A DNA stretch of 21,160 bases from Synura sp. LO234KE. Its lineage: Eukaryota; Sar; Synurophyceae; Synurales; Mallomonadaceae. Of this stretch, positions 6,353 to 18,937 are shown one piece after another. Below the pieces are notes generated by a model, which was not told the DNA's origin, made no database searches, and was given only the letters and a program-made list of their open reading frames with translations. Position 1 is the stretch's first letter. Every line of letters begins with the position of its first letter. Location: NCBI GenBank assembly GCA_015143735.1, contig VKHC01000066.1, positions 1-21,160 of the forward strand. Reading direction: 5' to 3'. The position numbers and the translations under genes were made by a program.

Positions 6353-6503
6353 ATATAGTTATAGGTTAGAATAAAGACGATCGTGGGACCTGTTTAATAG
6401 GGAAGAGGAGATCATAGTGTTGATCGTCGGCATCAGGGATCATAGCGCCATGCATTCTAGATCATTCCTGACACCCTCTTCGCTAAAGTTCAAGTTGAAG
6501 TTT
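6353..6503 (+). repeat. Direct repeat, copy 1 (~150 bp)
   Basis: Starts at ATATAGTTATAGG and contains GGGACCTGTTTAATAGGGAA, TAGCGCCATGCATT and CAAGTTGAAGTTTT. All recur in the same order and orientation at 6830-6976 with scattered substitutions and small indels. The two copies are separated by about 330 bp. Confidence 0.8.
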
Positions 6504-6829: not shown

Positions 6830-6976
6830 ATATAGTTATAGGTCAGAATGAAGATGATGTTGGGACCTGTTTTATAGGGAAGAGGAGAGCATAGTATTAA
6901 TCGTTGACGTAAGGGATTATAGCGCCATGCATTATCATTCTTGACACCCTCCGCGCTAAATTACAAGTTGAAGTTT
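6830..6976 (+). repeat. Direct repeat, copy 2 (~150 bp)
   Basis: Second copy of the 6353-6503 repeat, with the shared blocks GGGACCTGTTTTATAGGGAA, TAGCGCCATGCATT and CAAGTTGAAGTTT. The pair could be a local duplication or worn ends of a small element. I saw no target-site duplication outside the copies. Confidence 0.8.
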
Positions 6977-7883: not shown

Positions 7884-9480
7884 TACTAAGAGCCGCGGTA
7901 CTAGTTAATCACGGTTTCCTCCGTCTATTCTTCCATATTTTTTATAAATTCTCATTAACAGGTCTATTCTTCCATGAATTCCTTGCGCCTCCCGCCACGC
8001 TCTCGATGTTGCCTCCAATCTAGTGGGGGGATGTAGTAGTCCGGTGAAGATTTCTGCCTAAGACGAGGATTACAAAATTCCGACCGACTGGGATCACGGA
8101 TATATGGGGAGCGTGGGGATGAGTTCTCCAATTAGTCCTAGATGCTTCTGAACTTTAGTAGGGACGCTCTAGCCACCGGGAGGTCCACCTCTGTATAACC
8201 TTTAGTCTCTACGGTATCCGCTTCGGCGTGAGAAGAATATGGAAGCTCTTAACGTGACCAGGAGTAGGTCGAGCACTCTAAGAATTTCATAAAAAAGAAT
8301 CCAGTGATTATTTTGCAAGATAATCGGACGAGAAGCGATTAGTTTTACAGAGTAGTTGTAATCCTAGATGATGTAAAAACAGCGATGTTATATGAACACA
8401 AGTTTCAACAGTTTCTAACTATCCAAAAATTGTTGTAAATTCTAATTTACAGGAATATCTCAACCAAGACATCTTATTTTGATTAAATTTTTATTTTATT
8501 TTTGGGCACTATACAAATAGTCTATTATGGGTAACAATCCAGTATTTTCTATGTTTTACTATCGGTAGACACTCGATAGAAGTAACGACTCTATTATTTA
8601 AGACTTATTATTTGGTTTGACCGTACTTATGAATATCTTATTGTCAGAGAATAGTTTCGTCGATCTCGAATCTTAATTATTTGTTATGCGGACGATAGTG
8701 AAAACAAGATTTGAAAAATTCGCATTCCCACGGTAAATCATGTGTTACACAGATAACAATACCCCTTCCGTGATCAAGTAGGGGCTGGAAAAAAATGCTG
8801 AGCGGCAAGGAGCGAAAATTCCCCCGTCCCGAAAGATTAGAGTTTATATCTGCAACGAAGCTAATGGGGACGCGCGGCCGAACCCCACCTAGTAAGATAC
8901 TACCTATTTGGGGTGAGCAGGGATAAAATTTCAGTGAAACACACACAGGGTGAGAACTAGAACTGCTATTAGCATTTCTTCTTGCCTGACAGAAGCTGAT
9001 AAGTAGTAGTGGGGAAAGTGCACCAGTTTAGAAGCGTCCCGTAGTCTCCTCTTGCCCCAGGGGCGCCCGTCCGGGCTATTAGGCAATGGGTGGATAGTTT
9101 TTGGGAGAACGTGTTTGAAAAGGCGTGCCTATGAAGTGCTCCATTCACACTGTAGGTGCGTCATCCGATGACACTACCGGAGTAAAGAGTGAAAGACACT
9201 CTTCTCCGCGTTCAAGTTCTGACAGGCTTTTCCTGCCAGCTAGGCCTCCTCCTCTACATGCCGCGTATTTGCGAATTTCATGCCGCGTGATTTTTGCCAG
9301 TACGGGTAAATGGGTTCCATCCTCGGACCTTGTTCATCTGGGCTCCGGCACAAGCGCCTCTTCATATTTACCTAATCAAGTGTGAAGTGTGACAAAAAAC
9401 TTTGAATGCTGACTGACTGGAATCCGCTTCAATGCGGCGAAGAGAACAGAGAAAATTTGGTACTGGTAACGGAGCCGCGT
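7884..9480. other. No recognisable gene; AT-rich centre, probable 5' flank of the Copia element
   Basis: A 14-bp direct repeat GTCTATTCTTCCAT occurs at 7923-7936 and 7962-7975. About 8280-8670 is AT-rich; part of it (about 8557-8605) resembles 6171-6230, both with GGTAG-CACT followed by CTCTAT. A minus-strand 89-codon frame (8677-8946) and a plus-strand 86-codon frame (9125-9385) show no known motif. The 5' LTR of the Copia element should end near 9500, but I could not match it to the 3' side. Confidence 0.35.
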
Positions 9481-9498
9481 TCAATGACATGAAGCAAA

Positions 9499-9510
9499 TT
9501 TATATATAAG
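9499..9510 (+). promoter_or_regulatory. TATA-like motif upstream of the gag-like frame
   Basis: TTTATATATAAG lies about 40 bp before the first gag-like codons at 9544. A similar TTATATATAAG lies at about 18812-18822, beyond the Copia 3' end. Matching TATA boxes in both flanks would fit a pair of worn LTR promoters, but the sequence around them is not clearly alike. Confidence 0.25.
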
Positions 9511-9862
9511 GCCCAGAAATATATTAGACTATATCAGTTCCCGTTGGACCCTCTTACTTTTAACGATATGTCTTCGAAGTTGTTCACCCCATTGCAGTTG
9601 CCTCAACTTTGGACGTATGCTAGCGCGGAAGCAGTGGAGATGAATAGAGAAGGTCGATTCGACATCACCGCGTGGTTCAAAATCGAGAGGTTGTGTGCAG
9701 AAGCAATTATGAGAAGACGGAATATAAGCTACTTTATCAGGCGCAGCAGATCCAGAGTTCCAGATATACGTCACAGCAGAGGGCAACTACTATAATAAAT
9801 CCAGGACTGCGAGGACAGTCGAATATCAACGTTGTGATACCACCTTCGTTGATAGGCAGACC

Positions 9863-9881
9863 AATCCACCCGCGTATAAGT
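9863..9881 (+). repeat. Target-site duplication, left copy (SINE)
   Basis: These 19 bp, ending CCACCCGCGTATAAGT, recur at 10127-10145 with one mismatch and flank the SINE exactly. The last T merges with the A-tail's complement. Confidence 0.9.
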
Positions 9882-10054
9882 TTTTTTTTAAAACTTAAAA
9901 CTTAGCTTAGCAAAACATGACGGCATATAATGCTAAGCACCCATATGAGCCAGATTGGCAAATCCCACGAGGGTATGGGCAAACGGACCCCCTTAACTAA
10001 CTACTAGGTCCCGATAAATTCTCCGAGGTCTCCGTCGACCCCCTATAATTTAAC

Positions 10055-10126
10055 GGGGACAGCCGGGAGTCGAACCCGGGACCTCACGCACCCGAAGCGC
10101 AAATCATACCACTAGACCACTACCCC
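10055..10126 (-). tRNA. tRNA-Pro(CGG)-like head of the SINE
   Basis: The minus strand folds as a 72-nt tRNA. The acceptor arms GGGGTAG and CTGTCCC pair fully with two G-U type pairs (4 and 5), the anticodon loop is TTCGGGT (anticodon CGG at 10094-10092), the anticodon stem has two wobble pairs, and the T-arm is CCGGG-TTCGACT-CCCGG. The overall pattern matches eukaryotic tRNA-Pro. No CCA is encoded and there is no intron. Because it is fused without a gap to a LINE-derived body and lies inside target-site duplications, I read it as the SINE promoter head and not a working tRNA gene, although a tRNA scanner may call it. Confidence 0.85.
10066..10119 (-). promoter_or_regulatory. Internal Pol III promoter (A and B boxes)
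   Basis: The A box TGGTCTAGTGG is read from 10119 to 10109 and the B box GGTTCGACTCC from 10076 to 10066. Both fit the eukaryotic consensus. They would drive SINE transcription leftward from about 10126. Confidence 0.85.
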
Positions 10127-10145
10127 ACTCCACCCGCGTATAAGT
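10127..10145 (+). repeat. Target-site duplication, right copy (SINE)
   Basis: Right copy of the 19-bp duplication (18/19 identical to 9863-9881). It abuts the first base of the tRNA head, so the SINE is full length at its 5' end. Confidence 0.9.
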
Positions 10146-10890
10146 GCGCCTGGATACAGAGGAGCAGTTGAAGCTCCTGCTTAGTTACGCGACAGTAAAA
10201 CGATTCTTAAATTTGCGACAAACTAGAGTATCCATGTGGCCATTGGCTATTCTTACGAGGTCAAGAGATGTTTTCTGAAGCCCTTCTGATGTATTTTTTC
10301 GGGTGCATTCATTTCAATAACCTATTTCGACAGCGTTACGGGGACTTAGGCTTACATTTTAAGAGGCGACTCAATTTGGATTCCCCAATCAACAGGTGCG
10401 CGATTCGAATGAATTGCCGTTATTTTACCAGGTAGTTTTCTTCTCAAAAGTGGGCTTGAGGACGGGACAAGCGAGCATTGATCTGGTTACAAAGAGACCG
10501 CCCATGATTCAACAGACAGTAGAATATCTATACCAACAGAGTCAAGCCATGGATAGGGCATAGGTGAAGACACATCGACAACTGCTATGAATCATAGACC
10601 CATTGAATACTCCTGCACATGTTACATAGTATGAACCTCTATGTAAATATGTTTGAGGTCCTACAATAAATTTTCTTCAAATGCGCGGGGAGTCTCATGA
10701 AATTTTCAAATGATGAATAACAGAAGGCTTAGATCATACGGACAGTGTTGCTACAGCGGTAACAGCCTATTATCGATCGCTTTTGCGTTCGGAAATATTT
10801 CAGACAGGCCCGTGTTCATATGAAATCAAGGATATTCTACATGTGATGAATTTAACTCTGTTCGCTGCGGTCATAAAGTTATTGAACTAG

Positions 10891-11458
10891 GCGGAAGAGA
10901 ATTGCATGAACTGGGCGCATTGGTCTAGGGGGGTGGTGGCCATCAGAGATGCATACTATTTCTTGCATATATATGCTTGCAACCTAATGCTCAGAGTGCA
11001 CGCCAGATTATGAGATGGCAGAACGCAAAGAGGGTGTTACGAGACGGACTGTACATGAACTGTTCATGAACGCGTGACTTTGATGGTAAATGAGATGCGG
11101 GGGTGGGAACTCTATCATTTGACAATCCTAAACCCAGTGTTCACTAGGGTATAATTTGTTGCTTTGAATATTGATGAAGATTCTGGGTCAGATACGTGAA
11201 GGGGTTGGAGGTGTGTGGTAAGCGTGCGATTGATACATGACCGTTCGATGTTTGAATGCGATCCTGAACTTTCGATATAATCGTAATATTCCATCGTGTA
11301 CCTTACTTCCCGCTACGATCACCTCGCGTACTATTACATATAATCAGCCACTTCGGATGCTTATATCGTTATGTTAAAAGCCATGACAGTGGCAATAAGA
11401 ATACATAGTCAGACTGTATGGCACCTGAACTGAATATGACATCCGCGGCAACGAATCG
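10891..11458 (+). other. Copia interior between gag-like and protease remnants, no readable domain
   Basis: Only short open stretches are left here. I looked for a CCHC zinc knuckle, expected between capsid and protease, and did not find one. Around 11050-11075 TGTACATGAAC and TGTTCATGAAC form a short near-perfect direct repeat. Confidence 0.4.
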
Positions 11459-11560
11459 ACCGGATTATGTGGTATTAACTTCATAGTGGACTCCGGAGGG
11501 CTAAGTCATACTTTAACTGGTTATATTATGTTGATAACTATATGGTTATGGAAGACTTAA
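11459..11560 (+). pseudogene. Copia aspartic protease remnant
   Basis: One frame reads NFIVDSGGLSHTL followed shortly by a TAA at 11558-11560. This fits the Copia protease active site (W-I-x-D-S-G-A-S-x-H-M): the catalytic Asp (11489-11491), Ser and Gly are kept, and the His three residues on is also kept. The enzyme would cleave the Gag-Pol polyprotein in the virus-like particle. Frame is lost where a 44-bp tandem duplication begins (11514). Upstream and downstream protease strands are not readable. Position between gag-like and integrase remnants supports the call. Confidence 0.65.
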
Positions 11561-11598
11561 CAGGTTAGATTATATTGACAACTATGTGGTTATAGAAG
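11514..11598 (+). repeat. 44-bp imperfect tandem duplication
   Basis: Unit 1 (11514-11557) starts TAACTGGTTATATTATGTTG and unit 2 (11558-11598) starts TAACAGGTTAGATTATATTG. Both contain AACTAT-TGGTTAT-GAAG. The copies differ by about 15%, so the duplication is not recent. It lies directly after the protease motif. Confidence 0.75.
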
Positions 11599-11746
11599 TG
11601 GAGGACCACTCTTCGATGAATCCAGCGGATAGAACCAGAGTCTAGAAAGAGACTGAGGGACTTGTGTAGTGTTTTGGGGTGTAAACTATGTTTCAGATAT
11701 ATATCTTTTATCTGTACGTCAGATAAACCGACAAGGTGTTACTAGA

Positions 11747-12590
11747 AGCTTTAGTAATGGGGCATGTGATATTAGCGATATAGCAACAGGAAAGTTAGTG
11801 CTTCGCTCTGAGATTTAAGATTTAAACGGGTTGTATACGTCGTCACAAGAGCAACTTGAGGAGCAATAGGAATAGGATATCAGCTGCGTATGGCTCATTC
11901 AATGCGTCCATACCCTGCATCAAGACTCACATTCCGAATCATGCTTCGGCAGTAAGGTGTATTATGAATGCAAACGTAATAATTATCCAGGACCAAAGAA
12001 TCCTTTGACGGCGAAGTTGAGAAATAAAATTAAAACGTGTGTGCTCTGTCACAAAACAAAGGGGACACATAGGCCAAACTGCCCAACTCTTGAGAGAGGC
12101 ATTCAGTTTAAAGAAAGTTGTTCAGTGTTGGTTTACAAGGGCTCAAAAGGAACGCTGTCGCGTGAGTACGGGAACGTATGCATAGGGGGCTTCATTGCAA
12201 ACAACTCTCGTTTTATTATAAAGAATTTTGTGAAGAATAATAGTGACATATGTGCTTTGACAGTGTTTTGGGTTGACGCGATTTTTACTCTATGGAAGAT
12301 AGAAGAATTTAGAGCTAGGGAAAATCTTTTTGCTTAGTGACAATGGGGAGTTCAATAGTAAGAAGACGCAGGCATTTTTTCTGAAGCACGGAAAGCTGGT
12401 TTGTCCGTATACACCTCGTCATAACGGTGTTATTGAGCGAGTATGACAAATGTTGATGTCGGCTGCTGTGGTTCTTTTTTAACGGCGAGATTACAGGAGC
12501 GTTTGGCTATGCTGTGCACGTGTATAACATGATAAATTGTACTCCAAAAGCAACCATCCAGCAACGCAAACATCGTAGTAGGAGCAATTG
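11747..12590 (+). pseudogene. Copia pre-integrase and integrase remnant
   Basis: The segment begins with the pre-integrase style SFSNGACDISDIATGKLVL and an NGLY block, then a 126-codon frame (11957-12337) with CVLCHKTKGTHRP, the expected end of the zinc-binding domain. FIANNSRFIIKNFVKNNSDI follows, recalling Copia F-I-D-D-x-S-R...K. A one-base shift leads to LLSDNGEFNSKK (Asp at 12339-12341) and CPYTPRHNGVIER (Glu at 12435-12437), the second and third catalytic residues of the D,D-E core; the first Asp is not readable. A TGA at 12444 breaks it. GYAVHVYNMINCTPKA at about 12510-12560 is the next conserved block. Integrase would insert the cDNA into chromosomes. GC-rich LINE sequence takes over soon after. 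Confidence 0.8.
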
Positions 12591-12639
12591 CGTCCGACGC
12601 TTGGTTGTGGTTTCGGAGGCGAGGTGGCTAGAGGGGCAC

Positions 12640-13305
12640 TGCAAACCTCGTCTCTTATCTATGGACTCGTATGATCACATTTATTGAGCATGCCCACATC
12701 CTTATCGCTACCACCCGTTAAGGGCTCTTGGAGGGGATCACCAAGAAAAACTCTACCCTCAATCGGAATAAAGCTCTACTTCAGCTACCCTCCTTCAGCT
12801 GTATCACGAAGCAGATGGGTACAGAATAATCTAAGCGACCTGACGCTTCAACATCCACTCCGTCTGCTACCGATATACTAAAAAATCCCAACCCACTTTC
12901 CGGGATGGAGACGCGCATTTCTTTCAATCAACTCCTCGTCTGGAATCTTGGCGAAACGCTCCCACATCCTTCTTAGTTCCGTTAGTTTCTGAGGGGAAAG
13001 TGTTCCCGAAGGTTTTATGTGGCGTATGCTCTATCGAGGGCACTCTTTGGGCTTGTACTCAGAGTACGAACTTGCCGACTCCCAACTGCAAAAGTTTTCC
13101 AACGAACGCATTCAAGAATTACCGGACAAATGCGGAGCCCAACGAGTCTCCAAAAACGACACACCCAGCACCTTCTTCTTGCCTCTATACGGATGGGTCT
13201 CACAATTAACCTAATGGAAAGCGAAGACTCCCTGCCCTGGCAGGCTGGGAGTTCCTTGCGCCGGACCGGAAAATGGATATTACGTGTCCTCGCTGAGGGC
13301 CCGTG
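12640..13305 (+). mobile_element. LINE fragment ending inside its RNase H domain
   Basis: G+C and C-richness rise sharply after about 12600. In one frame the end reads SSCLYTDGSHN (13174-13206), a stop, then LPALAGWEFLAP (13231-13263) and GPV (13297-13305). YTDGS followed by A-G-W-x-F and G-P-V is the N-terminal half of the same RNase H type found at 16550-17024; the first catalytic Asp (13192-13194) is kept. Upstream frames (for example YSEYELADSQLQKFSNERIQ at about 13050) look coding but I recognise no reverse transcriptase motif. The sequence ends exactly where a long inverted repeat begins. The left border is uncertain by about 50-100 bp. Confidence 0.6.
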
Positions 13306-13510
13306 CCCTACAACCGACCATAACGACGCAATCCTGACCCGTCCAAATTAATAATGAATATCACCGCATCACTCTTGATACGTGCGGTTTCAACACCAAG
13401 AGACTCAATGGCTGGTAAGTCACACACCTTGTTATTCACATTAAGGGAGTGTATGCCACAGGATATGCCCAGTCGGTCAATCTTGTATCGTCCCAAAAGT
13501 CTTACTAAGC
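13306..13510 (+). repeat. Long inverted repeat, left arm (~205 bp)
   Basis: The reverse complement of this arm matches 13667-13872 from end to end at roughly 80-85% by eye, with blocks such as CCCTACAACCGACCA, CACCGCATCACTCTTGATAC and GAGACTCAATGGCTGGTAA in the left-arm orientation. The minus strand of this arm is open and reads KVCDLPAIESLGVETARIKS. Confidence 0.85.
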
Positions 13511-13666
13511 AAGCGCTTGCGCCCTCCTGTGTGCTCAGCTCCCTAAGGACCGTTTATATATGGAGCACCTGTGTCTGGTTAACGTTGAGTCCTTTCAAAG
13601 AAATCTTGCTAGCGGAGTGTACACACTTTCCCGTCTTCCTTCTTCAACCGACGAGATATGAAATGC
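13511..13666. other. Loop between the inverted-repeat arms (156 bp)
   Basis: Unique within this window as far as I can see. A plus-strand frame (13354-13743) crosses it only because the arms are partly open in that frame. Confidence 0.5.
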
Positions 13667-13872
13667 AGTTAGTAAGACCTTCGGGAGGACTCAAGATTGA
13701 CCAATTGGGCATATCCTCTGTGGCATACAGTCCGTTGATGTGAATAACGAGGTGTGCGAGTTACCAGCCATTGAGTCTCTTGGCGTTAAGACCGCATGTA
13801 TCAAGAGTGATGCGGTGGCATGAAATATTTACGTGTACGGGTCAGGATTGAGTCTTCTGGTCGGTTGTAGGG
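13667..13872 (-). repeat. Long inverted repeat, right arm (~206 bp)
   Basis: Inverted partner of 13306-13510. Its plus strand reads EVCELPAIESLGVKTACIKS, nearly the same peptide that the left arm gives on the minus strand. The repeated unit therefore probably came from coding DNA. Plus-strand coding character continues beyond the arm to about 13930, so this arm may be the original and the left arm the inverted copy. Confidence 0.85.
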
Positions 13873-15230
13873 AAGGGGAAATCTTGCTCACATCAAGGTT
13901 TTTGCGTGAGTGGCACTGATCAGCTACTTTATCACCTCTGTCAGAATGTAAAGGGCCCGATCAACACATACCAAGCATGTCATATGACATGGCAACTTTC
14001 CATCCTTATCGTGCTGAGATAACAACGAAATCTGGAGTCAAGGGCATCCCTGAGTTTACTCCCGTTCCTACATCTGAGGAGTGCTTTACATATACTCCAG
14101 AGGAGAGGGATACAAGTGTATTGGGTTAGTACTTCCCGACCCCATTATATGTACAAGTGTGTAAGTCATTAGTAGAAGGACTTTTGAGAATACGTTTGGT
14201 AGTTGCGTTGCAAGGGACAGGTGTACGCCTGTATAAGCCACCACCAAACTTTTGTTGGTATGTGACCCACAAATGCCGGTGAAGTAATGAGTACAGAGTG
14301 ACATCTTCCTCATTATTGTTGATCCTGTTAGATGAACTGTATCTGTAGGAATCCACACTTGCAGTGGCAAACTTGATCCGCTTTGTGCAACTTATCTTGA
14401 TGGGCCCATCCAGGGATGGCGTTAAAGGATAATTGTAGATTCAAACCCTAACTTGAATGAGGAGATATTAAGGAAATGTCATAATCTATGAGTAATCGGA
14501 GTGGGTTCACTGTTGAGTTTGTTGAGGAAACTGGGTAAGGTACCGATAAATATCAAGCTGGCGCAGTAAGTCTAAGGGAGTGGTCAGGGTAGGCATTGAC
14601 GAAGTTAACTTTAATGCGTTATGAAAGATTAAAGTGGACGCTAACTTTTGAGAGAAGAGAGCAAAGACTATTTACGATGGGGACGAGGAAGCGTTTTTTT
14701 GCATTGATTCCGATTGGTTCTTGCGATAATGGATCATCATGTTATGATAAGCGTGCGACGTAATAGTTATAAAACTGCTGCATCGAAGTGAAGATCAACT
14801 TACTGAGGAAGTGTGCATGAGATCGAGAAGAGGACGTCAGTTTAAGAGTCGGGTAAAGAGAAGTCGCTTGCTTATTTGAGAGATTCTATCCAATGTGATC
14901 CTTAGCATGGGTTACTGTGCTGAGTGTTGAGAGTGCATGATTGCAAGAGGGTATGCGGTTGACGATGGGTAATAGGGTACTGATACTTCCAAACGAAGAA
15001 GCTTTAGTGAGCTCAGCAGAGTAAGTAACTGCTGGAGTAGTGAATCTATATCCGAAGCTAGACGTAGAGTTTGGACCTAGGAGAGCTTTCAAACTTTACG
15101 AAGTGTCTTAGGTAGCGAAGTATAAAGAAGATTAGAGGGACCTTCTTCGCGGCGTGTAATGGAAAGAGTGTGACGGTGATGGTTTTATCGTCTGCAGATC
15201 GATGGAGGCAGGTTGAGGAGGCAGAGATCA
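13873..15230 (+). other. Copia interior between integrase and reverse transcriptase, no readable domain
   Basis: In an intact Copia element this linker spans the integrase C-terminus and the approach to reverse transcriptase. Short plus-strand runs look coding (for example around 14000-14110, IPEFTPVPTSEECFTYTPEE) but no conserved motif is readable. The minus-strand frames at 14086-14370 have no supporting motif. Confidence 0.4.
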
Positions 15231-15790
15231 AATGAGAAAATTTTTTTATTGTCGATGAAATTACCGGGAGGACGGAAATCAATGCACACGAAGTTGATCT
15301 ATGCTATCAAGTAGTACGGGGGGGGGACATTTTCAAGAGGAAAGCTAGGTTAGTTACTCAAGGTTTCGATAAGTGTTTGGTGTGAACTTAGATGAGGCCT
15401 ATGCCCCTGTGACAACAATTGTCAGCACAGTTAGGTTTGACCGTTCATCAGATGGAGGTAGAAAATAAGTTTGAATCAGAAATTTTAAAAAATGTAGAGA
15501 CTGAGTTCTTGAATGCTAAGATAGTCGACGAGGTGTTAATTTGCCGTCGTTATGCAGACTATTTATTGATTGCTGGGACAGTTTTAATGCCATGGGGAGA
15601 CTTACGTTATATTAAGGAGATTTAAAACATACGACTTGGGGAAGATTCATCGTATATTGAGATGTGAGGCAATACGTGATGAAGCGCCAGGAGGCTACTC
15701 TATGAATCAGAGGCATTATATATGGTAGAGCTATGTAAAGATGTACTTACTGCTTGGGGGAGCCAGAGTATAGACGCCAATGTCTGATGA
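15231..15790 (+). pseudogene. Copia reverse transcriptase remnant
   Basis: Just upstream a frame reads ADRWRQVEEAEIK, then LPGGRKSMHTKLIYAIK, the Copia run-in (W..A...E, LP-G-K, K-W-V). FKRKARLVTQGFD (15332-15370) is a near-perfect R-x-K-A-R-L-V-x-x-G-F block. LTVHQMEVENKF follows (Q-M-D-V motif with Asp changed to Glu). The active site reads RYADYLLIAG (15548-15577) against Y-V-D-D-L-L-I-A-G, so one catalytic Asp is Tyr. After a frame change, FKTYDLGKIHRILRCEAIRD (15621 on) matches the M-K-D-L-G-x-x-x-x-x-L-G region. A large part between Q-M-D-V and Y-V-D-D is deleted, since these lie only about 100 bp apart. It would have copied element RNA into cDNA. Confidence 0.85.
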
Positions 15791-15998
15791 GACCTTCTCG
15801 AGAAGAAGATGTCACCGACTGCAGATAAACAGAGGCTTGAGATGCCTAATATACCTTACAGACAGGTGGTGATTAGTTTTTTGTGGTTGGTTATGGGATC
15901 GAGAGTTGACATTGTGTTTGCCACTAAATATTGTCTTAAGTACAGTATTGATCCGGGGATGACCAAATGGTATGCTTTGCTTGGAATATTATATTTAC

Positions 15999-16040
15999 GT
16001 ACTAAGGGAACGAAGGGTTAAGGTACTAAGGGAACGAAGG
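15999..16040 (+). repeat. 24-bp tandem duplication in Copia RNase H
   Basis: GTACTAAGGGAACGAAGG at 15999-16016 is repeated perfectly at 16023-16040. The period is 24 bp, so the frame is kept, but a TAA lies in the spacer. Confidence 0.9.
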
Positions 16041-16430
16041 TGAAGGATTGGTCTACAAGAGACAACAGAAAGATGTTGAGTTTGAGTGTTATTCAGAGAG
16101 GGTACCAGACTGTAAGTTGGATCAGTATATGGGACCTCGGACGGAAGTCCTCTTATCTATGCTCATATTGATTCAGATAATGCAAGAGACCTGGTTACAA
16201 GGGGGTCTATCACAGCATGCGCTATCTTTGGGTCGGTAGTTGAAGTTGAAATCTTTTGTGTAGCAAAGTCGAGCTTGGCAGAGTACACGGCCTTATGCAT
16301 TAGTACTCGCGAGATCGTAGTACTTAATATAACTATTACTAAGCTGGGATATGCGAAAGAGCAGAGACCTATCTCAGTTTATGAAGACAATTAGTCTCGA
16401 GAAAAAACATGGGCAATGCCAAGACTAAGC

Positions 16431-16456
16431 ATATAGATATTATTTATCATTTTGTT
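16431..16456 (+). repeat. 26-bp inverted repeat, Copia-side arm
   Basis: This arm is part of the Copia RNase H codons for H-I-D-I-I-Y-H-F-V. Its exact reverse complement (26/26) is at 16524-16549, with 67 bp between. Confidence 0.95.
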
Positions 16457-16464
16457 AGTGAACA

Positions 16465-16478
16465 GCTTGTTGTGGGAC
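16465..16478 (+). repeat. Probable target-site duplication, left copy (LINE)
   Basis: GCTTGTTGTGGGAC matches GATTGTTGCGGAAC at 18187-18200 in 11 of 14 positions. Joining the two Copia halves at this repeat restores the expected order of conserved residues across the gap. Confidence 0.65.
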
Positions 16479-16523
16479 AGCGTTGGAGCGGCAGCGCCTG
16501 CGGTACCGCGTACTAGCGGAAGG

Positions 16524-16549
16524 AACAAAATGATAAATAATATCTATAT
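16524..16549 (-). repeat. 26-bp inverted repeat, LINE-side arm
   Basis: Perfect inverted copy of Copia 16431-16456, placed just before the first LINE RNase H codons. The TATA at its inner end overlaps a similar run in the LINE, suggesting a microhomology join. Confidence 0.95.
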
Positions 16550-17024
16550 ACGAGCATATACACGTACAGCTCTTTCACCATGGCAGACCCAGCGCAACAC
16601 ATCCAGGATAAAGCGGACTGGGGCTACATCGTGGTTTAACAGTCCGAGACTTTATGTCGAAAGAACAACTACCTCATCCTGGACCCGGCAAACGACCGCT
16701 ACCACGAAGAGTAACAACACAGGGGAAGTAACCGCAATTGGCGAAGCTCTCGCCTGAATCCTACAACAGCAATCCAACCCCGTCATCAGTTACGAAATCT
16801 GCTCGGACAGCTACTACGGAATTGATGCAGTGGATAGCTCCCGCATCTGCAACGGAGCACTCATCCAATGGGCCTACGATCAACTCGATCTAAGCAGTGG
16901 AGCGGTAAGCCTCGTCCCATTCCAAAAGCTAAAGGCACACCGCAACGACAACTCGATCGACAATGGAAAAAATCGCGAAGCAGACAAACTCGCCACACGG
17001 TTCGCCAACAGACCTACCGGCTGA
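16550..17024 (+). pseudogene. LINE RNase H domain remnant
   Basis: The first frame reads IYTYSSFTMADPAQHIQDKA then DWGYIVV and LDPANDRYHEE; this is YTDGS with the catalytic Asp (16565-16567) changed to Tyr, followed by the A-G-W-G-x-x-V-V strand. A frameshift near 16705 leads to SNNTGEVTAIGEALA (catalytic Glu 16725-16727), a TGA (16755-16757) where related enzymes usually have Trp, EICSDSYYGIDAV (second Asp 16806-16808) and KNREADKLATR (last Asp 16983-16985), ending at TGA. KAHRND supplies the usual His region. The enzyme would remove RNA from the RNA/cDNA hybrid during LINE insertion. All blocks are present in order, so identification is firm although it is inactive. Confidence 0.88.
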
Positions 17025-17786
17025 CATGGAAGCGGAGACGGTGCAACAATTCCTGTACCCCTTGGACTGGGATGAAGACTCCGACGACCTAGTTCCTCCT
17101 ACAGATTCACGGATAGGCGTCCCCAGCCCCGCAGCCGGACCCGGTCATGACTACTCGTTCCCCCCCCCCCCCGTAGTTGGTTGAACTATCCCTTTTACCA
17201 CCCATGCTCACTGCTGCACAATGCGACAATGCACCCCCTAGCACGCATATTCATTCCGTACCCTGCAATGATGCTCATCCTAAAACTAAAAGCAGCTCCC
17301 ACAGATCAGCTCTTTGCATATCGACGCGTGCTCCGCGCCCCAAACCACCCTCTGGCCAGAGGCTCAACCCGAAACCCACAGAGGACAGACTGGTTCTTTA
17401 CCTCGGACCACAGCACCGCAAAGACTGGGCCCGTCCCCGAGGCTACACTGGGCGAAGAGGCAACAGGGGTTCAAGAGAAACCGGGGGCCCCAGTAGCTCA
17501 AAGCCCCGCTGCCTACTTGATAGGTCTACCATAGCTGCGCCGCCGGACCCCCACCGACCACCTGCAGCAAACCCTCACGCATCCGAACCCCAACAGCAGA
17601 GCGGCAAGCGCCCGGCGGAATGTCCCGGGCCGGTCAGGCGGACAAGACACAGCAGCATACTACACACACCGGGATGGGGCGGACAGCGAAGGCACGCTCA
17701 GGTCTGCGGGACAGAGTCGGGCCTGGCCAGACAAGGGGGCCCGTCGTCACTGCGGGCAGGAAAGAGCAGCCCCTGCGCAACAGTAG
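17025..17786 (+). pseudogene. LINE C-terminal region, proline/arginine-rich, with poly-C tract
   Basis: Downstream of RNase H the frames stay open unusually long because the DNA is C-rich: one plus frame is open for 206 codons (17177-17797) and others overlap it. DWDEDSDDLVPPTDS at about 17070-17110 looks real. A run of 13 C at 17160-17172 and another of 9 C near 17803 are likely frameshift points. A frame ending in GARRHCGQERAAPAQQ before a TAG at 17784-17786 leads, in phase, into the terminal frame at 17787. I recognise no domain. Overlapping open frames here may be a composition effect, so none is called as a gene. Confidence 0.45.
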
Positions 17787-18077
17787 CACCCTACTAAGCC
17801 ATCCCCCCCCCTATGGGGACCGGTCTCCTCCCGACAACACCGACCTTTTGCAGCCACCAAAGAGCCCAGCCACGAGACAGGAACCAGAAAGCGGCGGAGA
17901 TATGGCGAGACGCGAAGCACCTTTGAGATGATGGTAGCAACCCGGAAGTGGGACGCTACTCGTCGTATCAGGGTGGCCCGTGAGAGAGACTTGTTTCTAA
18001 AAGAGTTCCCAGGCGTAAAGAATGAGAGGGGTCAGCGGGGATCTCGGGGGATTTATCGGGACCTAGTAAATAGTTGA
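17787..18077 (+). CDS. C-terminal frame of the LINE polyprotein (partial)
   Basis: After a TAG at 17784-17786, one frame is open for 96 codons to a TGA at 18075-18077. The last third (from ATG 17928) is strikingly protein-like: MMVATRKWDATRRIRVARER then DLFLKEFPGVKNERGQRGSR and GIYRDLVNS. It is rich in Arg and Lys, as expected for a nucleic-acid-binding C-terminus, but I recognise no domain. Its last ~21 codons lie inside the 3' segment shared with the SINE. The matching part of the SINE has stops, so the SINE took this stretch as RNA signal and not as protein. This is the terminal part of a dead LINE reading frame and not a stand-alone gene. Confidence 0.55.
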   Translation, partial: HPTKPSPPLWGPVSSRQHRPFAATKEPSHETGTRKRRRYGETRSTFEMMVATRKWDATRRIRVARERDLFLKEFPGVKNERGQRGSRGIYRDLVNS

Positions 18078-18186
18078 GGGGGTCCGCTTGCCCATACCCC
18101 AAGTGGGATATGCCAATCTGGCTCATATGGGTGCTTTGCATAATATGCCCGTCATGTTTCGCTAAGCAAAGTTTTACTTAAAAAAA
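18015..18186 (+). repeat. LINE 3' tail shared with the SINE
   Basis: This segment (end of the reading frame, ~110-bp 3' untranslated region and A-run) matches the SINE body 10054-9882 in inverted orientation along its whole length, at about 85-88% by eye after the first ~15 bp. Shared blocks include ATTTATCGGGACCTAGTA, TTGCCCATACCC, CCAATCTGGCTCATATGGGT and GTTTTA before the A-run. Both copies end at the A-tail. This is the part that a LINE reverse transcriptase would recognise. Confidence 0.92.
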
Positions 18187-18335
18187 GATTGTTGCGGAAC
18201 TTATTACGATATTTTAAGATCCCTATGACGAGCATTACAGCGGATATCTTAACAAAGCCGCTCCCTGCAGAAGCTCATCGGAGACATATTTCTAGTCTCC
18301 TGGTGATCATCTATCCAGAGGATGAAGGGCGTTAA
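18187..18335 (+). pseudogene. Copia RNase H C-terminus (ADILTK block)
   Basis: Right after the LINE A-run, ELITIF (18197-18214) continues the Copia strand. A one-base shift at a T-run gives RYFKIPMTSITADILTKPLP (18207-18266) and ...HRRHISSLL to a TAA at 18333-18335. A-D-I-L-T-K-P-L is the terminal signature of Copia polyproteins, so this fixes the element's coding end. It was separated from the rest of RNase H by the LINE. The first 14 bp form the right copy of the LINE's probable target-site duplication. Confidence 0.9.
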
Positions 18336-18937
18336 GGATTGTCTATCAGCACTCCTTATTTGCAATCCGTTTTAAGTAAGAGTGCTCGTAGGCTTGTAGA
18401 GCTTTAGAATGGCACTCAAAAATATGCTACGGATTTTTCTAATTTCTAAGTTTTTTTAGACGGAACTCCACATAGTTCATTTATGGTGTATGAAAATGCC
18501 TACGTATATGTTATATGAGTGTGTAGTAATCAATGTCAATATAGACTCAGTCTTGCTCTATTTGTCTAAGGGAGACTGCCAGAATATCTGCTTATACGAA
18601 AAAGAGCACAGTATTTCACTAGTAAGTCGGGATCACGAGCAAAGGTACTGAAGGGTACCCTAAGCAGTCTAGCTTGGGGTGGTGTGTCTATCTACCAAGG
18701 GATCTGTAGCTGGAGGAATGTACTTTATGCGTGTCTAAGACTTGAGTACAGTTGCTGGCTAGTTCTCAGGTACTTTGGAATTTTTATTTATCGGAATAGT
18801 ACTGCTTATAGTTATATATAAGACGGTTAAGGTTTATCTCAGTGTACGAACACCAGTACATGTCTATACTCTTTCCGGAAAATCTTACATCACCTATACG
18901 CAAATGCATGCAACACGCAAAATGTCTACTAGTTAAG
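18336..18937 (+). other. Expected 3' LTR region of the Copia element, borders unresolved
   Basis: AT-rich, no coding frame. The 3' LTR should begin soon after 18335, preceded by a purine-rich tract (GAGGATGAAGGG at 18318-18329 is a weak candidate). TTATATATAAG at about 18812 could be its TATA box. I found no convincing match to the DNA upstream of 9544, so LTR identity is an expectation from the element type. Confidence 0.35.

Follow-up and report, generated by a model that had tools for sequence, protein, structure and literature searches.

A tRNA-Pro sequence joined to a LINE 3' end in Synura, and the headless copies of its 3' module

The tRNA-headed unit and the window LINE

Short interspersed elements (SINEs) are thought to arise when an RNA polymerase III (Pol III) transcript gains the tail of a long interspersed element (LINE). 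A 248-base unit that joins a tRNA-Pro sequence to a LINE 3' end lies on the minus strand at 9882..10129 of a stretch of the alga Synura sp. LO234KE (contig VKHC01000066.1, positions 1 to 21,160; this whole stretch of 21,160 nt is the window), and a LINE copy with the same type of 3' end lies on the plus strand at 16479..18188. An earlier note on this DNA had read the two as a SINE and its likely partner LINE inside one Copia element.

The tRNA-headed unit begins with a leader of 2-3 nt, followed on the minus strand by a tRNA-Pro(CGG)-like head (10055..10126), a 12-nt spacer that lacks CCA (10043..10054), a LINE-derived part (9883..10042) and an A-run. The tRNA is called complete by ARAGORN and matches Rfam RF00005 with 48 bits, against a gathering score of 29. 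The letters of its A box (TGGTCTAGTGG) and B box (GGTTCGACTCC), judged against what we take to be the consensus of each, are intact at unit positions 11 and 54, as in a candidate Pol III promoter. There are three T4 runs within the unit. BLASTN aligns 9883-10042 (minus) with 18028-18186 (plus), the 3' end of the LINE, at 85.8% identity over 162 columns (E 3e-46), and an A-run ends both. The spacer bases 10043-10054 fall outside this alignment and match neither the tRNA nor the LINE part. The similarity and the stop at the A-run are thus as the earlier note had them, whereas the shared stretch starts at 10042 and 18028, not at 10054 and 18015, and contains about 16 codons and the stop of the LINE frame where the last ~21 codons had been counted; that the non-tRNA part is LINE-derived was correct, save for the spacer.

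A perfect 16-base duplication, (T)CCACCCGCGTATAAGT on the plus strand, encloses the unit, with one copy on the A-run side (9866..9881) and the other on the tRNA side (10130..10145); it is 16-17 bases long if the T is counted, and a strict duplication finder described below reads it as 21 bases with one mismatch. Since this one duplication lies outside tRNA and tail alike, both were inserted together as one unit. Its C|A start and its length of 16-17 bases resemble those at other copies of the tail, which counts in favour of the chimera proposed below. It is very improbable that the two RNAs were never fused and that a LINE tail simply landed next to a tRNA-Pro gene already in place: a complete tRNA, recognised in both searches, is what such an event would leave, but the position of the duplication outside both parts, with the length and start seen in other copies, speaks against it.

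The window LINE (16479..18188, plus) is a 5'-truncated copy of about 1.7 kb, 70% to 73% identical to a copy on another contig (C61:13556-15174). It has an RNase H-like region that remains below the Pfam cut-off in the window copy (E 0.064) and is 65% identical to an open frame on C61. The frame stops at 18075-18077, and the part of the 3' end that recurs elsewhere by itself, called the module here, spans 18085..18186 (plus). A better-kept copy on C4 (L124:85-1296) has a 404-aa frame with PF01693, the RNase H1 N-terminal domain (E 1.8e-4); among 11 database relatives, two carry both PF00075 and PF01693 and five carry one of the two. PF01693 together with RNase H appears to be an unusual pairing for a LINE. 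The reverse transcriptase of the tail's owner was sought with RVT_1 on C4 and on the window contig (C63), with no match on either.

Copies of the tail in the assembly

The assembly was searched across 8.09 Mb (549 contigs, those read being 10 kb or longer), an extent that a low-copy family could escape. A 20-base core of the tail, with at most 3 mismatches, occurs at 92 places, against none for the reversed pattern. These reduce to 88 distinct contexts once C549 is left out and identical contexts are collapsed; 86 of them were aligned, giving 84 distinct rows. The tRNA head is absent from the 87 other tail copies read. When the whole unit was used as the query, the tRNA part was covered by the window copy alone among the 40 candidates scored of 78; used by itself, the tRNA part has one other match (2 of 2 candidates scored), an ordinary tRNA-Pro(AGG) gene beside a tRNA-Lys gene. 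An assembly-wide tRNA search gave the same picture, in that none of the 50 tRNAs reported (63 of 326 candidates scored) adjoins a tail except that of the window. Many of those 50 lie on contigs C1 and C13, the first of which also carries a red-type rbcL, as expected of a photosynthetic eukaryote whose plastid is of the red lineage; among the 120 RbcL relatives listed, the best full-length match is 94% identical, and no assignment narrower than a red-type plastid follows from it. The exact module core has no match in the viral and genome contig collections searched. The SINE family proposed earlier is therefore unsupported: the tRNA part recurs only in that ordinary gene, and no second junction of tRNA-Pro and tail, whose absence the earlier note had itself named as evidence against a family, occurs among the tail copies.

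Most of the copies with a readable duplication are short units that lack both a head and LINE coding sequence. The strict duplication finder, tied to the A-run and used at a score of at least 10.5, sees clear duplications in 33 of 88 copies; a control that pairs the upstream side of one copy with the downstream side of another gave 1 of 440 at score 10 and 0 of 440 at score 11. A looser finder also gave 33 of 88, at a score of at least 10, with 4 of 264 controls, and the counts quoted here are those of the strict one. In 21 of the 33 copies the 5' end falls within -29..-25 of the core, an interval of 5 nt; in a separate, looser listing of the 88 contexts, units with this start measure 98-112 bases, apart from a single one of 138. 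The remaining 12 ends lie at -24, -22, -21, -16, -13, -4, -39, -41, -61, -66, -165 (the tRNA-headed unit) and -627; the copy at -61, L090, is counted outside the interval, with an alternative reading at -27. By core type, the 21 comprise 15 of 20 TATGGG units, 3 of 5 TAAGGG units and 3 of 8 others. The duplication begins with A in 27 of the 33 and is preceded by C in 22, the tRNA-headed unit having the same C|A.

Sequence upstream of the module varies between copies. Four of the 88 contexts are too short on that side; of the 84 with at least 100 upstream bases, 55 have no in-register similarity to another copy, an upper bound because L027 is counted although it aligns from unit position 86, and 29 fall into groups of 14, 9 and 6. 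The group of 14 is of the window LINE type and includes the tRNA-headed unit through its LINE part; LINE protein similarity lies upstream in 8 of the 14, reaching in several to within about 40-80 nt of the core. The same protein search upstream of the groups of 9 and 6, which are mostly of the TAAGGG type, gave no match. The earlier note had named an unrelated third repeat as a result that would refute its reading. Could the shared stretch be such a repeat, inserted separately into each of the two elements? The many places where the module has no LINE-like sequence upstream, and the two groups lacking a LINE protein match, are what a third repeat would produce. Yet the LINE protein similarity runs close to the core in the group of 14, the tRNA-headed unit includes the end of the LINE frame as well as the module, and among the LINE copies read none ends before the module with an A-run and duplication of its own. 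With the piece being the end of a LINE frame, and lying inside the duplication of each unit, this alternative has next to no likelihood.

Some single copies have further features. In L056, about 39 bases of other sequence lie between the duplication and the point where most units begin, which may reflect another small jump between templates. L113 repeats the first 20 bases of the module directly before its module copy. On C142, a module copy (12263-12357, minus) lies just past a Copia match.

The predicted fold and the sharp 5' border

In single-sequence folds of the module, helices P1-P3 form a three-way junction and P4 a hairpin downstream of it. In the tRNA-headed unit the module and its A-run occupy 9882..9986 (minus), with a fold z of -3.98; a headless copy, L036, has a z of -2.38. 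Across the 84 distinct rows, 440 of 502 cells are paired in P1, as are 467 of 568 in P4. P1 has 25 changes on both sides of the helix, where shuffles reach 15 at most, and P4 has 37, where they reach 23, so that covariation is seen in two of the four helices. The clearest compensatory change, AU to UA in P1, is carried by 21 rows. A cmscan for known ribozymes or RNA families at E<=5 had no hit to L036:1400-1700; in the window, 17900-18260 gave a single hit, at the level of chance (E 0.81).

The 5' ends of most short units lie just upstream of this fold, where the enzyme may drop off its template on reaching the upstream edge or, conversely, the RNA may already begin there through a separate promoter or RNA cleavage. 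We regard such an RNA start as a serious possibility, somewhat short of even odds. The ends fall within 5 nt even though the enzyme has by then passed the fold, and the two bases before the border are UC in all three upstream-similar groups (by eye), both of which would suit an RNA with a fixed beginning. On the other side, the Rfam search above finds no known ribozyme, in an analysis that did not include promoters, and the ends scatter by a few bases in the manner of polymerase drop-off.

A terminating ribosome was also weighed as an explanation for the narrow range of 5' ends but was rejected, the distance from stop to border being about 8-10 nt in the A-type LINE and about 17 nt, by eye and from a possible stop, in one TAAGGG-type group.

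Origin of the tRNA-headed unit

On balance, the unit at 9882-10129 appears to be a one-off chimeric tRNA/LINE retroposon inserted by LINE machinery, with the ~100-nt module as the likely handle of the enzyme. A LINE reverse transcriptase would copy a LINE-type 3' end; its cDNA would continue into a tRNA-Pro transcript that kept a short leader and some of its 3' trailer, unless the RNA already contained that transcript; and the product would be inserted by target-primed reverse transcription. The folded module ending in the A-run, common to the tRNA-headed unit, the LINE and many other copies, would most likely serve as the template-recognition handle; most copies with a readable duplication landed without LINE coding sequence or head, starting in a narrow interval just upstream of the fold. 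The sequences show the fusion, the duplications, a shared target motif, a fold that covaries in two helices, the narrow range of 5' ends and, within this assembly, no second tRNA-headed copy. The role of the module in recognition, the way in which tRNA and LINE parts became joined, and the reason why the 5' ends agree so closely are inferred.

Several observations weigh against this interpretation. The absent CCA and the 12-nt spacer are a poor fit to a jump onto a mature tRNA. The module of the window LINE itself has a fold z of only -1.23, modestly better than shuffles, and the both-side changes in P2 (2, shuffle maximum 6) and P3 (1, shuffle maximum 3) do not exceed what shuffling yields. 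RNAalifold, given the 86 aligned rows as they stood, returned no structure (energy 0); the helices were defined manually before their changes were counted, and the alignment thus did not yield the fold in a blind search. The changes in P1 and P4 may also reflect few inherited events. Further tRNA-headed copies may exist beyond the 8.09 Mb. The 2-3 nt leader would suit a real Pol III transcript of a SINE, and the position of the tail in a tree of the module, described next, would fit a SINE master better than a one-off event.

This tree, built from 48 A-type rows and 95 columns with 31 of 45 inner branches open, places the tail of the tRNA-headed unit at zero branch length in a clade of 20 (support 92/90), together with 18 short copies and one fragment that extends to about -60. 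The window LINE lies outside it and is not the closest relative; as a partner for the unit it has the same type of 3' end, as the earlier note proposed, but the unit's tail falls in a different subfamily. Most members of the clade have the linker AAGTT or CAGTT, against ACTT in most LINE copies. In-register LINE sequence beyond -90 is found in 0 of 20 clade members and in 9 of 25 other A-type copies (Fisher p 0.0025), a count that leaves out c8, which matched nothing but the adjacent row from its own locus. Within the clade, L056 shows 31% identity to LINE protein P0003 in a match that ends 172 nt upstream, out of register and beyond the duplication; if this copy is included, the clade has 1 of 20 and the other A-type copies 9 of 25 (p 0.027). 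A further A-type row with a LINE protein match, c68, comes from the same contig stretch as the LINE copy c54.

Is the unit then one of few full-length copies of a true low-copy tRNA-Pro SINE family, with the young clade as its 5'-truncated offspring? The zero branch length among short non-LINE copies, the intact box letters and the leader would all follow, and the lack of in-register LINE continuation in the clade (0 of 20 against 9 of 25) is what keeps a SINE master in play. We nevertheless hold such a family to be unlikely, while giving it real weight. The tRNA is on 0 of the 87 other tail copies, and the three internal T4 runs could stop Pol III, which argues against efficient output of the full unit as read from its sequence. 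The LINE protein match of L056 weakens the contrast on which the clade stands out, headless units with the usual 5' end are also found outside the clade, and the module of the tRNA-headed unit carries a private one-base deletion in P2 (alignment of 86 rows), so that the window unit itself is not the master.

A more specific version would make a tRNA-Pro-headed RNA the source of the young subfamily, a SINE spreading almost exclusively as promoterless stubs of ~100 bp. Reverse transcription would stop where the folded 3' module, common to it and a LINE, begins on the upstream side, and nearly all insertions would therefore lack the head from one and the same position. This we consider doubtful, a degree more so than a SINE family as such. 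The one-off chimera remains the reading adopted here, and a single tRNA/LINE chimera with a readable duplication would stand close to the step at which a SINE is born.

The host of the LINE and other features of the window

Seven contigs match both flanks of the LINE without the LINE itself. The two flank matches overlap by 12 bases on C174 and C358, 18 on C418, 6 on C68 and 1 on C339, and are separated by a gap of 11 bases on C52 and 110 on C142. The 12-base overlap corresponds to the target-site duplication of the LINE, TTGTTGTGGGAC at 16467..16478 on the left and TTGTTGCGGAAC, with 2 mismatches to the left copy, at 18189..18200 on the right (both plus); since these other copies are contiguous, the LINE lies within a multi-copy element. 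We call this host a Copia element from motif letters read by eye. The decayed Copia-type fragment to the left of the LINE (15678..16478, plus) matches C174:6247-7071 and others, and the one to the right (18189..18857, plus) matches C174:5583-6258 and others, with the letters ADILTKPL, presumably a Copia motif, near 18240. RVT_2 has no match on C63 (46 of 46 candidates scored), and Pfam on 20 pieces gave no Copia-related match and three matches in all, every one below its cut-off, the RNase H at 0.064 among them. The empty sites thus bear out the placement of the LINE inside the host, whereas the same claim for the tRNA-headed unit is not borne out: the search for an empty site found no copy contiguous across 9882, and C522 and C151, which both have relatives of 9473-9805, continue alike from there without resembling the window past the unit.

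At the left edge of the LINE, an inverted repeat pairs 16431-16455 in the Copia flank with 16525-16551 inside the LINE, and most of this second arm is missing from the LINE on C61, which would fit a small patch copied from the flank once the LINE had inserted. Elsewhere in the window, 12335-12450 contains letters (HNGVIER) that by eye resemble the end of a Copia integrase, and 12581-13270 has relatives on C184, C380, C475 and C291 that are 67-76% identical. An imperfect inverted repeat at 13300-13878, with arms of about 210 bp at 84% identity, has the look of a foldback-like insertion, and a direct repeat of about 150 bp (6353-6503 and 6830-6976), 85% identical, has its copies 477 bp apart.

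Relation to known systems

Shared LINE tails and template-switch chimeras are known kinds, going by the portions of the literature available for the systems compared here. SINEX-3_CR and L1-1_CR of Chlamydomonas are named as a SINE/LINE pair in the available part of PMC3747384; compared by description only, that pair differs from a single tRNA-headed copy with many headless ones. The literature titles listed, which cover few subscription papers, do not name the SINE/LINE pair of this window, and searches on LINEs truncated at a uniform position and on SINE/LINE pairs of algae yielded no relevant paper.

Closer in mechanism are the MINE and related LINE chimeras of Magnaporthe, which the accessible text of PMC2104539 ascribes to template switching, with WEIRD RNA as the main partner and 33 bipartite elements. 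As described there, they resemble the tRNA-headed unit in being the copy of a cellular RNA fused to a 5'-truncated LINE 3' end and flanked by short direct repeats; they differ in their partner, mainly WEIRD RNA among 33 elements, where here it is a tRNA, once. In the passerine SINEs TguSINE1 and PittSINE, a swap of heads is likewise ascribed to template switching in what is available of PMC5729268, with about 2,000-2,500 copies per genome. The likeness is in the tRNA head and LINE tail, the passerine tail having a hairpin that binds the reverse transcriptase; the difference is in copy number and in the tail end, an 8-bp microsatellite there and an A-run here, where one copy has a tRNA head. 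The precedent of template switching in MINE and in passerine SINE heads, as far as these excerpts describe it, was counted in favour of the chimera.

The ~100-nt module has its own parallels. In eel UnaL2 and UnaSINE, and in other stringent-type LINEs, a structured 3' end is common to LINE and SINE. The Synura module differs in its structure, about 100 nt that form a three-way junction and a hairpin, and in occurring for the most part by itself, with 5' ends in a narrow range. Eel UnaL2 and eel experiments are mentioned in the available part of PMC3747384. Within the literature searched, we have seen no description of a LINE 3' module whose insertions mostly consist of the module by itself and have 5' ends in so narrow a range.

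Ordinary LINE copies, according to that same part of PMC3747384, are cut at various positions, from 100 to 1,000 bp. Ordinary 5'-truncated LINEs likewise keep a 3' end, an A-run and a target duplication, whereas in Synura 21 of the 33 units start within 5 nt. About 20 insertions, each with its own duplication, have starts only a few bases apart beside a covarying fold; the headless units may for this reason report directly on the point at which LINE-type reverse transcription stops, and the expectation of scattered truncation for LINEs becomes testable in an alga.

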